Shown here: positions 6,329 to 43,927 of the stretch, piece by piece
How positions within the stretch are numbered: position 1 is the stretch's first letter
How the letters are laid out: each line of letters starts with the position of its first letter
The notes under the pieces: model-generated
What the model saw: only the letters and a program-made list of their open reading frames with translations
Databases searched by the model: none
What the model was told of the DNA's origin: nothing
Made by a program: the position numbers and the translations under genes
Assembly: GCA_945901245.1 (NCBI GenBank)
Contig: CAMDKY010000011.1
Location: 1-50,863, forward strand
Reading direction: 5' to 3'
Source of the DNA: Polynucleobacter meluiroseus
GTDB taxonomy: Bacteria > Pseudomonadota > Gammaproteobacteria > Burkholderiales > Burkholderiaceae
Length of the DNA: 50,863 nucleotides

Positions 6329-6640
6329 TTAGGCCTTGATCGTATTAATCAAAATTTCAGTGAAATTCTGACGATGACCTTGGTGTTTTTGATAGTGCTT
6401 GCGCCGGCGCATCTTAAAGATTTTCACTTTGTCGTGACGTCCTTGGGAGATGACAGTGGCCATCACAGCGGCACCATTAACCAGTGGATCACCCAACTTG
6501 AGTGAAGCGCCCTCGCCTACGGCGAGAACTTGGTCTAAGGTAATTTCGCTGCCGATATCCGCTGGTATCTGTTCTATTTTCAATTTTTCACCAGCAGCAA
6601 CTTTATACTGTTTGCCACCGGTTTTTATGACCGCGTACAT
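6329..6640 (-). CDS. rplU: 50S ribosomal protein L21
   Basis: Ribosomal protein bL21, which binds 23S rRNA next to L20. I place the start at the ATG giving [14 protein letters not shown] (103 aa, the family length). A longer reading from an upstream TTG is rejected because its AGG second codon is part of the Shine-Dalgarno sequence (GAGG, 9 nt before the ATG). Conserved features include [18 protein letters not shown], the K/R-rich [19 protein letters not shown] segment and a C-terminal TxxxINTI-like end. It is the first gene of the operon with rpmA, with a near-perfect promoter about 60 bp upstream. Confidence 0.98.
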
Positions 6641-6702
6641 GGTTTGAAACCTCAAATTAATGAAACATTGAAGCTAATCCACACGGACTAGCTGAGCCGA
6701 TT

Positions 6703-6731
6703 ATTATATCTTGCATGAGTACCACTGTCAA
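6703..6731 (-). promoter_or_regulatory. Consensus sigma70 promoter for rplU-rpmA
   Basis: Reading on the minus strand, the -35 hexamer is TTGACA (6726-6731), the spacer is exactly 17 bp, and the -10 hexamer is TATAAT (6703-6708). All twelve positions match consensus. The -35 box lies inside the 5' coding end of the divergent ispB. The predicted transcription start is near 6696, giving a leader of about 55 nt before the rplU ATG. Confidence 0.85.
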
Positions 6732-7719
6732 AACTCCTGATCTGGGTGCCATTTTGGCCCCCATAGCCCCTGATTTAAAGGCTCTAGACGAGGTTATTAA
6801 GTGCCGTTTGGCCTCTGAAGTGGCCTTAATTGACCAGATTTCAGGCTATATCATCCAATCCGGCGGGAAGCGGGTACGCCCTGCCTTGCTGATTTTGGTC
6901 GCCAAAGCCCTCTCCAGCGACCGAGAAATCCCCCATGTGCTGGATTTAGCCGCTGTCGTCGAATTTATTCACACCGCCACCCTCTTGCACGACGATGTCG
7001 TTGATGAATCCACCCTGCGCCGTGGGCGTGAGACTGCCAATGCGGCCTTTGGTAACGCTGCCAGTGTGCTCGTAGGGGATTTCTTGTACTCCCGGGCATT
7101 CCAAATGATGGTGGAGCCTAACGACATTCGGATCATGCAGATTTTGTCCGACGCCACCAATACGATCGCCGAGGGTGAGGTATTGCAGCTCCTGAACATG
7201 AATGACCCCGAAGTAGATGAATCGAGCTACCTTCAAGTGATTCGCTATAAAACCGCCAAATTGTTTGAGGCTTCCAGTGAGTTGGGCGCTATTTTGGCTG
7301 GCGCGAGCAATAGCGAGCGCGAACTCGCTGCTGCTTTTGGTCGCCACATTGGCACCGCATTTCAGCTGATGGACGATTTACTCGACTACACCGCTAGCCC
7401 TGAACAAATGGGCAAAAACGCCGGGGACGATCTGCGCGAGGGTAAGCCAACACTCCCTTTAATTTACTTATTGGAAAACGGCAATTCGGAGGAGCAGTTT
7501 TTAGTGCGCTCAGCCATTATGCAAAATACCGATCTTCCAGAAGACGTATTCGAGCAAATTCTGACTGCGGTCCAGGGCTCTGGCGCACTGGAATACACCC
7601 AACTGGCTGCCAAACGCGAAGCAGACCTGGCGCTTGGCAATATCAAAGCCTTCCCAAAGAATGCTGCTACAGACTCCCTGATTGCACTATGCGAATACTC
7701 TCTTGCAAGGCAAATGTAG
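6715..7719 (+). CDS. ispB: Octaprenyl diphosphate synthase (long-chain trans-prenyltransferase)
   Basis: Elongates farnesyl diphosphate with isopentenyl diphosphate to make the ubiquinone side chain. The 334 aa carry GGKRVRPAL (residues 50-58), the first aspartate-rich motif HDDVVDESTLRRGR with D93, D94 and D97, and the second QLMDDLLDY with D219, D220 and D223. A small alanine (A88) sits five residues before the first motif, as in long-chain enzymes, where bulky residues would limit chain length. Eight carbon units is assumed from betaproteobacterial relatives, not seen. The start ATG is only 7 nt after a TATTAT box, and the region is shared with the divergent rplU promoter. coq7 in this window uses the same pathway. 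Confidence 0.93.
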   Translation: MSTTVKTPDLGAILAPIAPDLKALDEVIKCRLASEVALIDQISGYIIQSGGKRVRPALLILVAKALSSDREIPHVLDLAAVVEFIHTATLLHDDVVDESTLRRGRETANAAFGNAASVLVGDFLYSRAFQMMVEPNDIRIMQILSDATNTIAEGEVLQLLNMNDPEVDESSYLQVIRYKTAKLFEASSELGAILAGASNSERELAAAFGRHIGTAFQLMDDLLDYTASPEQMGKNAGDDLREGKPTLPLIYLLENGNSEEQFLVRSAIMQNTDLPEDVFEQILTAVQGSGALEYTQLAAKREADLALGNIKAFPKNAATDSLIALCEYSLARQM

Positions 7720-41587: not shown

Positions 41588-42558
41588 TGGCTCACCTGTC
41601 GTCGATAAATAAGGCCATCCTCTACGCTGCGCTTTTGAGCAATCCGCATGACTGCTGAACGGGCTCGCGGATTTTTGCTTACTTCGGCACTACTTGGTTT
41701 CACTCTGTTGATGAGTTCCAATGCTCCTTGGGGCAAATCCTTCTCTCGAATCGGCAATCCACGCGGCACGTCTACCGCTGAATGCATTTGCATAAACTGT
41801 TTAACGATGCGATCCTCTAATGAGTGAAAGCTAATGACAACTAAGCGTCCACCCGGCTTCAGCAAGTTCAGAGCCGCCTGCAGCCCGCCAGATAAGTCAT
41901 CTAATTCTTTATTAATAAATATCCGTAGCGCCTGAAATGTCCGCGTTGCTGGATCTTGTCCTGGCTCGCGGTTTTTAACAACGCCGGCAACTAAGTTAGC
42001 CAACTCCATGGTGCTTGCTAAGGGCTGATTTAATTCACGACGCGCAAGAATTGCTTTCGCGATCGGCAAGGCAAAGCGCTCTTCACCGTAGGTTTTAATC
42101 ACGTACGCAATATCATCTACGTCAGCTTGATTCAGCCACTGTGCCGCAGTCAATCCAGTCGTGGTATTCATGCGCATATCAAGCGGCCCATCGCGCCGAA
42201 ATGAAAATCCCCGCTCGGCCTCGTCCACCTGTGGCGAGCTGATACCCAAATCGAGTAGCACTCCCGCTACTGATGCGGGCTCGGCATGCTGTGCCATGCT
42301 GGCGAAGCTGCTGTGCACAATCTGAAAGCGCGTATCGCTTATTTTTTTTGCCTCTGCAATCGCCTGCAGATCCTTGTCGAATGCAATCAACTGCGCATCG
42401 GATCGCATCGCTCCTAAGAGTGCTCGGGTATGACCCCCGCGCCCGAAGGTACCGTCGATGACAATCGATTTCTCGGACGATTCTGTTTGCAGTAATGGAC
42501 TTTCCAATAGCGCAGTTACCGCCTCGGCCAGTAAGACTGGGCGATGAGTCTGATTCAT
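41584..42558 (-). CDS. rsmH: 16S rRNA m4C1402 methyltransferase RsmH (MraW)
   Basis: SAM-dependent enzyme that methylates N4 of C1402 in the ribosomal P site. The 324 aa begin [14 protein letters not shown] and have the SAM-binding [39 protein letters not shown], and [21 protein letters not shown] motifs. All match the MraW family. It lies 12 bp after mraZ, the standard first pair of a dcw cluster. Confidence 0.98.
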
Positions 42559-42570
42559 GCGGCCCTGTCA

Positions 42571-43002
42571 TTAAAAAGTAAATTGTTTGAGGGCGTCCGG
42601 CACACCTTGCATCATTGCGGCCTGCTCTTTTGTTGCGTAGGTTGCTGCATCCCACAATTCAAGGTGACTACCCATGCCGAGAAGAATGACTTCACGCTGA
42701 ATGCCTGCAGCAGATCGTAATTCGGGGCTCACTAAAATTCGACCTGCAGTATCGAGATCGAGTTCGGTTGCGTTGCCGAGAAAAATTCGGCGCCACCAAT
42801 GGGCATCCATTGGCAATTGCGCTACACGTGCTCGAAATGCTTCCCACTCGGGTCGCGGAAAGACCAACAAACAGCCATCCGGGTGTTTTGTTAACGTCAC
42901 TCTTCCCTCACCTTGCACCAGCAAGGCGTCACGATGCTTTGCCGGCACGGACATGCGGCCTTTTGCATCTAAATTGAGAGCTGACGCACCTTGAAACACC
43001 AT
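42571..43002 (-). CDS. mraZ: Transcriptional regulator MraZ
   Basis: DNA-binding repressor of the dcw operon, with a ring-shaped oligomer built from two AbrB-like swaps per chain. The 143 aa show both DxxxR motifs: [10 protein letters not shown] near residue 12 and LDTAGRILV near 83. The start [12 protein letters not shown] is the family start, with GGGG three nt before the ATG acting as a short-spaced ribosome site. Just upstream are repeats that fit MraZ operator boxes, so self-repression is likely. Confidence 0.97.
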
Positions 43003-43005
43003 TTA

Positions 43006-43030
43006 CCCCACTTTTTCACACTTCCTCCCA
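43006..43030 (-). promoter_or_regulatory. Three MraZ-type operator repeats
   Basis: On the minus strand the sequence before mraZ reads TGGGA (43026-43030), TGTGA (43016-43020) and TGGGG (43006-43010). They are separated by exactly 5 nt, a 10-bp period. With flanking bases each unit is (A/G)AAGTGG, GAAGTGT and AAAGTGG. Known MraZ operators are three TGGGN repeats with 5-nt spacers in E. coli and AAAGTG(T/G) repeats in mollicutes. The boxes overlap the -10 element at one end and the ribosome binding site at the other. Confidence 0.75.
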
Positions 43031-43058
43031 CTTTAGAGGAAGGTATTACAAGGGTCAA
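43030..43058 (-). promoter_or_regulatory. Predicted dcw operon promoter (Pmra)
   Basis: Minus-strand TTGACC at 43053-43058 (five of six consensus), a 17-bp spacer, and TAAAGT at 43030-43035 (four of six). The -10 box runs into the first MraZ repeat, so MraZ would block RNA polymerase. The predicted start lies near 43023, giving a leader of about 20 nt before the mraZ ATG. Confidence 0.6.
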
Positions 43059-43087
43059 GTGTTTTAGTGGATTTTTTTGGAATTTCC

Positions 43088-43108
43088 CTAGTGATTACAA
43101 TCACTTAG
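43088..43108. promoter_or_regulatory. Palindrome upstream of the dcw promoter
   Basis: AGTGATT-AC-AATCACT (43090-43105) is a perfect inverted repeat, extendable to CTA/TTAG with a one-base bulge. It lies about 32 bp upstream of the -35 box, a position suited to an activator. No regulator can be named. Confidence 0.35.
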
Positions 43109-43192
43109 CGATGACTATTAAACTAGGCTTTATAAAAATAGTCACCTGAAACAAGGGCTTGGAAAATATTCTTAATAATATATCTTAACTAT

Positions 43193-43270
43193 TAAGTCAT
43201 ATTATCCGAATTAATACTGTTTATTTATACAGTGTTAATCTACTTTAGGGCAAATAATGCCCTAATTTTT
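43193..43270 (+). ncRNA. Candidate small RNA with two hairpins and a T-tract
   Basis: The mraZ-coq7 gap (43003-43297, 295 bp, AT-rich) holds two tandem hairpins. The first is ATTAATACTGT / ACAGTGTTAAT (43210-43220 with 43229-43239, one G-U). The second is TTAGGGCA / TGCCCTAA (43245-43252 with 43258-43265), followed by TTTTT on the plus strand. A weak promoter, TTGGAA at 43159-43164 and TATCTT at 43181-43186 with a 16-bp spacer, would start near 43193. No gene on the plus strand needs this terminator. It could instead be a decayed coq7 terminator. Confidence 0.3.
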
Positions 43271-43297
43271 AATTGAGCATCACCAAAATAGCCAAAC

Positions 43298-43927
43298 TTA
43301 CAACTTGTAGGCGGCAGTTGTCATAACTTTGGATATGGTCTCCATGGCATTTTTGATCGGCTGTGGCAAAGGTTTACCGCCGGCATCCCGAGCTGATTGC
43401 CCATGCTCAATTTCATCGCGGCGCATCTGATCGACGATGGCACGGGAGCGCATATCAGAAAGAGGCAATGTCTCAAGGTGGCCGTTGAGGTGTTTTTCCA
43501 CCTGCTTTTCGGTTTCCGCAACAAAGCCCAGACTCCAACGATCACCCGCTAAGCCAGCTAGTAAGCCCATCCCGAAGGATCCTGCGTACCAAATTGGATT
43601 CAGGTAGCTTGTGTGGGATCCAAGCTCAGACAAGCGCTCTTCGCACCAAGCCATGTGGTCCATTTCTTCTTGCGCTGCATGGTCCAGCATGGCGCGCGTT
43701 TCTGGGCTACGTGCCATGATTTTTTGCGATTGGTATAAGGCTTGGGCACAGACTTCACCCACGTGATTCACCCGCATGAGCCCTGCCGCGTGGGACCGTT
43801 CCGCAGGAGTTAACGAATCGATATTTTCCCTTATCGGAATAGCCCGCTGGGCTTGCGCACCACCAGCGAGCGATCGCAAAGCGACGTCAAACTCCGTAAT
43901 GAATCGATCCAGCAATGTCATGGGCAT
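43298..43927 (-). CDS. coq7: 5-demethoxyubiquinol hydroxylase Coq7
   Basis: Di-iron monooxygenase that performs the next-to-last ring hydroxylation in ubiquinone synthesis. The 209 aa form a ferritin-like bundle with iron-ligand motifs: [33 protein letters not shown] and [17 protein letters not shown]. The middle [26 protein letters not shown] is the membrane-contact helix typical of Coq7. It starts 8 bp after bioB on the same strand. With ispB it places ubiquinone as the respiratory quinone. Confidence 0.95.

Follow-up and report, generated by a model that had tools for sequence, protein, structure and literature searches.

A predicted MraZ operator in compact form at the dcw promoter of Polynucleobacter

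The window, that is the whole stretch of DNA analysed (50,863 nt of contig CAMDKY010000011.1, Polynucleobacter meluiroseus), belongs to a genome assembly of 1.97 Mb in 79 contigs that is 93.75% complete. The minus strand of the window carries mraZ and, behind it, ORFs that, from a reading of their translations, we take to be rsmH, ftsL and ftsI. The mraZ protein, searched as a 143-aa translation beginning at ATG, scored 110.5 bits against TIGR00242 (cut-off 98.35), also matched PF02381, and resembled PDB 1n0e and other MraZ chains; the nearest MraZ-encoding records among those found were from Polynucleobacter or Burkholderiaceae. A terminator-like hairpin (43245–43265), oriented to stop plus-strand transcription, lies between mraZ and a coq7-like ORF, which like mraZ is encoded on the minus strand; one such site is near chance level.

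Read on the minus strand from 43058 to 43003, the DNA upstream of mraZ consists of TTGACC, 17 nt, TAAAGT and then GGGAGGAAGTGTGAAAAAGTGGGGTAA, within which three boxes were recognized (Table 1). The array overlaps the predicted -10, and the putative transcription start falls within box 2. The window held a single match to the three-unit pattern and 100 dinucleotide shuffles held none, while the looser AAGTG-N5-AAGTG-N5-AAGTG had a single match in the 1.97-Mb genome and its reversed-pattern control had none. The preliminary description of this DNA, which reported three units repeating every 10 bp exactly, downstream of TTGACC-17-TAAAGT, was thus borne out, the array being unique in the genome. 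A search of the same genome for further targets with the strict two-box pattern AAGTGKG-N3-AAGTGKG returned only two overlapping matches, both within this array. The promoter match at 43058–43030 scores 9/12, which taken alone is at chance level (shuffle mean 1.1).

Table 1. Features of the mraZ control region (window coordinates).
Feature	Position	Strand	Basis
-35 hexamer TTGACC	43053..43058	-	invariant in 66/66 aligned genus-type loci
-10 hexamer TAAAGT, bases common with MraZ box 1	43030..43035	-	genus-type loci: TAAAGT 63/67, TACAGT 4/67
Predicted MraZ box 1, AAAGTGGG	43027..43034	-	pattern search and genus conservation
Predicted MraZ box 2, GAAGTGTG, TGTG form	43017..43024	-	genus and family comparison
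Predicted MraZ box 3, AAAGTGGG (then G)	43007..43014	-	genus conservation
GGGG closing box 3, candidate Shine-Dalgarno, 6 nt before GTG	43006..43009	-	four G in 66/66 loci; role suggested by position
Putative transcription start, ~7 nt past -10	43023..43023	-	spacing and, by way of family loci, 5'-RACE in the available part of the B. cenocepacia report
Probable mraZ start codon GTG	42997..42999	-	conservation across 66 loci
mraZ coding sequence, 142 aa from GTG	42571..42999	-	TIGR00242, PF02381, PDB likeness

The ORF list, and with it the preliminary description, opened mraZ at ATG 43002 (window 43000–43002). In 66 aligned genus-type loci (69 minus L077, at a contig end, and the truncated L089 and L091), the codon at this position was ATG in 32 and TTG in 5, the other 29 having none of the common start codons there; the next codon, at the 42999 position, was GTG in 63 and TTG in 3. 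The start-finding rule required a start codon before F.G and favoured the second place, while it has no bearing on the non-start codons seen at the first. Because the upstream codon is often not a start and the next is GTG or TTG in 66/66, mraZ probably starts at GTG 42999 rather than at ATG 43002, the latter assignment being probably wrong. With GTG 42999, the GGGG lies at a 6-nt spacing (3 nt with ATG 43002), and the first DxxxR arginine is R15, which is important in E. coli MraZ.

The genus-type set comprised 106 loci (67 + 30 + 9) with 64 distinct 71-nt sites. Genus and family loci were drawn from two partly overlapping collections, and the genus membership of L031–L098 and L100 was judged by sequence and by titles, some of which name only a family or class. 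The exact three-box pattern was present in 91 of 101 genus genomes, this one included. Nine of the other ten have mraZ, all with slightly altered arrays: five loci have ACAGTG in box 1, two have AATGTGTC as box 2, one has AGGTG in box 3 and one a 2-bp insertion; mraZ was not detected in G056, an 85% complete genome. The insertion, in locus L253 of genome G047, separates the -10 from the array while the three GTGs stay in 10-bp register, and is a natural uncoupling of promoter and operator. In another genome, G042, tandem AAGTGCCAAT units on contig C71 (4606–4650) also fit the search pattern; its mraZ-type array is on C74, and the tandem units are probably an unrelated repeat.

TTGACC occurred at the same spacing in 66 of 67 genus-type loci, the 67th (L077) ending at a contig edge. 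All four GGGG positions were G in 66/66 loci, and L251 and L252 carry GGGA. Mean information over the 66 aligned loci was 2.0 bits in the -35, 1.95 in the -10 and 1.92 in the box stretch, against 1.2 over the 17 nt of the promoter spacer (1.03 over its first 14 positions). Since the genus genomes are related, this contrast between columns, rather than the count, serves as evidence. The same letters might be conserved merely as a promoter and a ribosome-binding site, with incidental 10-bp repeats and no protein site; indeed, one box overlaps the -10 and another the Shine-Dalgarno candidate, and close relatives share sequence by descent, as seen in the 64 distinct sites among 106 loci. The GTG of box 2, however, is part of neither element, yet it was invariant in 67/67 loci. 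Family loci whose -10 lies 58–200 nt from the start nevertheless keep boxes 1–3 in the 10-bp GTG register (46/46 anchored loci), and order and class loci hold this register despite other letters, all of which makes a promoter and ribosome-binding site without an operator very unlikely.

The family comparison covered all 47 sampled family genomes with mraZ outside the genus, every one of which had an array scoring above every dinucleotide shuffle. L305 was not anchorable, leaving 46 loci with 44 distinct sites, among which the starts of L302–L304 are uncertain. Box 2 read GTGTG in 35 of the 46 and GTGT plus another letter in 10. The middle unit had been described as a departure from the repeat consensus, a view that does not hold, since GTGT is found in 45/46 family loci; the proposed check on conservation of the TGTG variant instead found this form to be the commonest in the family. 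The bases following box 3 were TA in 28 family loci, CA in 7, GT in 4, GG in 3 (L302–L304) and other letters in 4. L302–L304 stand apart as divergent, their box 2 reading GTGTC and their box 3 GTGGG, and the usual rule gives them no clear start.

These family letters also bear on whether the G-rich array could function as a G-quadruplex, a proposal made for the mraZ promoter of S. aureus; in the available part of the source (PMC11796246), such a structure is reported in that promoter region. In Polynucleobacter the invariant TGTG of box 2 interrupts the G-runs, so that GGG, GG and GGGG remain, and box 3 ends in TA or CA in 35/46 family loci; we regard a G-quadruplex role as extremely unlikely.

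The genus-type loci differ from the rest of the family in three respects. Box 3 is followed by GG in 105/106 of them vs 3/46 in the family; a fourth in-register GTG is present in 0/106 vs 44/46; and the first T of the -10 stands 35–38 nt vs 58–200 nt from the start codon, the former range excluding the misassigned L015 (wrong start, 23 nt) and L253 (misanchored, 240 nt), both kept in the total of 106. Ten named loci from Pararobbsia, Paraburkholderia, Trinickia and Cupriavidus, three of which share a site with one of the 47 family loci, all had four boxes and a distance of 59–168. The genus form, at 38 nt, was found in a betaproteobacterial MAG (L106) whose MraZ is 74% identical. A fourth box at the start codon was considered and rejected, as no GTG stood in register there in any of the 106 genus-type loci; across 66 loci the GTG of box 3 was 11, 12 or 14 nt from the start codon, never 10. 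The locus described here likewise has no fourth in-register GTG box and so does not belong to the four-box Burkholderiaceae form. By sequence comparison, then, the genus departs from its family by compaction, with no fourth box, a box 3 ending in GG and a short distance between -10 and start, which upholds the earlier remark on a more compact layout as far as the family is concerned. A single deletion that brought an older G-rich Shine-Dalgarno directly behind the GTG of box 3 would be the simplest history.

Order and class arrays were scored with a hand-weighted matrix against dinucleotide shuffles. The first scoring left out 8/90 order and 3/30 class loci with no start codon before F.G; for the order, the start filter was then dropped and 23 extra loci were added, giving 113. 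All 113 order loci outside the genus exceeded the 99% shuffle level and 86 exceeded every shuffle, so that the alignment across Burkholderiales suggested at the outset found the 10-bp GTG register kept. Box 1 shared bases with a -10-like hexamer in 101/113 of these loci; the overlap of first unit and -10 noted in the preliminary description is therefore real and an ordinary design. In the class, where the sample was the best-scoring 30 of 124 and is therefore biased, 26 of 27 scored loci passed (L124 was below threshold) and 22 of the 26 had the overlap of box 1 and -10. In three order loci (L203, L217 and L228), the mraZ frame opens MIGG instead of MF[RQ]G, and the box array upstream is normal-looking.

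Gaps of at most 10 nt separated the start codon from the last GTG-core box in 7/113 order loci (one start uncertain), in 1/47 family loci and, among those from the best-scoring 30 of 124, in 2/26 class loci (L111 and L112). On these sequences, an operator close to the start codon is uncommon, yet it also occurs outside Polynucleobacter. The exact AAGTG three-box letters were present in 17/199 phylum-wide genomes, 3 of them Polynucleobacter, and the phylum search gave 20 matches, of which L147, L157 and L158 were near no mraZ. This rarity indicates that the letters vary outside the genus, whereas the 10-bp GTG register does not. In genome G144, contig C35 (L155), the three-box pattern at 7198–7222 lies ~250 nt upstream of mraZ (6541–6948), and no above-threshold array was found within 250 nt of the gene.

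Taken together, the locus has three direct repeats with a GTG core at a 10-bp period, placed upstream of an mraZ that heads the dcw cluster and conserved in genus, family, order and class, as in dcw MraZ operators. We put at about 93% the probability that the array serves the dcw promoter as its MraZ operator, in a compact form shared across the genus, with binding and repression predicted from sequence and comparative analysis. A sigma70-type promoter (TTGACC-17-TAAAGT) would drive mraZ and the genes behind it, and MraZ would bind three GTG boxes each about one helical turn apart, box 1 sharing bases of the -10 and box 2 covering the putative transcription start. With boxes 1–3 over the -10 and this start, bound MraZ would exclude RNA polymerase and so repress its own operon. 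The leader in Polynucleobacter would have been shortened to ~24 nt, with the family's fourth box gone and box 3 abutting the start codon, its GGGG probably doubling as Shine-Dalgarno.

The -10 is so near the start codon that box 3 is left as the sole Shine-Dalgarno candidate. The earlier identification of the last unit as the Shine-Dalgarno is plausible by position (6 nt before GTG, the only G-rich stretch so near the start), but its predicted anti-Shine-Dalgarno pairing, at -8.3 kcal/mol, is no better than that of shuffles (mean -8.2; 46% as good or better). The preliminary description also raised an action of MraZ on the mRNA, in which boxes 2 and 3 would lie in a short leader and MraZ or another factor would gate the ribosome site. 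A transcript starting at 43023 would contain both boxes. The leader fold was unremarkable (z 0.19), with nothing beyond shuffles, however, and no Rfam family matched in 42500–43400 at gathering thresholds. The equivalent array of the family is mostly far upstream of the start codon, and the MraZ literature cited, in its available parts, concerns DNA (PMC8475190, PMC7761207); these observations lend no support to gating of the ribosome site, which appears scarcely credible. It is likewise improbable in the extreme, if marginally less so, that box 3 is bifunctional as DNA operator and sole RNA ribosome site, with MraZ or a partner also binding both leader boxes in a two-level repression.

An operator acting on DNA is of a kind already understood, and the genus form is a lineage variant of a known system. 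It leaves knowledge of MraZ itself unchanged. It does present a minimal dcw control region, with -35, -10, three predicted MraZ boxes and start codon in ~60 bp and neighbours overlapping, and a family that includes both three-box arrays with a short leader and four-box arrays with a long one offers a clean comparison for the number of boxes MraZ needs. No paper on an overlap of MraZ operator and Shine-Dalgarno was among the matches listed for that subject or for MraZ in Polynucleobacter, as far as these sources were available, and repeat terms were not found in the available part of a paper on the R. sphaeroides dcw leader.

In E. coli, the dcw MraZ boxes are three TGGGN repeats, 5 nt apart. 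Eraso and colleagues reportedly found in 2014 that E. coli MraZ represses its own operon via boxes upstream of the dcw cluster. The present array is similar in having three repeats 5 nt apart upstream of the cluster, but differs in that box 2 is TGTGA and box 3 stands at the Shine-Dalgarno position. The E. coli boxes upstream of dcw are cited in the part of PMC8475190 available, as is the MraZ site of Mollicutes from Fisunov et al. (2016), which consists of direct repeats of AAAGTG[T/G]. All three boxes here fit the latter motif with one A-to-G change in box 2, although the phylum is distant and the likeness is one of motif letters.

A close parallel is PmraBc of B. cenocepacia, as described in the available part of PMC7761207. 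There, a promoter fragment shows a shift with purified MraZ, and four repeats of 7 nt, separated by 3-nt spacers, are recognized in it, apparently by inspection of the shifted fragment rather than by footprint. 5'-RACE placed the transcription start at a cytosine 100 bp upstream of the first codon, a position that the repeats overlap, and no other active promoter was reported in the regions tested under the authors' conditions (PMC7761207). Some family loci, which seem to resemble B. cenocepacia, have 112 nt from the -10 to the start codon (e.g., L263 and L264); in these, C occupies the position 100 nt upstream, 7 nt past the -10, and the equivalent base here is A 43023. The binding and 5'-RACE results in that part of the report, together with conservation from genus to class, support the original proposal of an MraZ operator fused to the dcw promoter. 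The two systems are alike in operon position, in 7-nt repeats with 3-nt gaps (10-bp period), in an array over the transcription start (putative here) and in MraZ as the binder (predicted here); they differ in that B. cenocepacia has four repeats and a start 100 bp upstream, whereas Polynucleobacter has three boxes and a putative leader of ~24 nt (PMC7761207).
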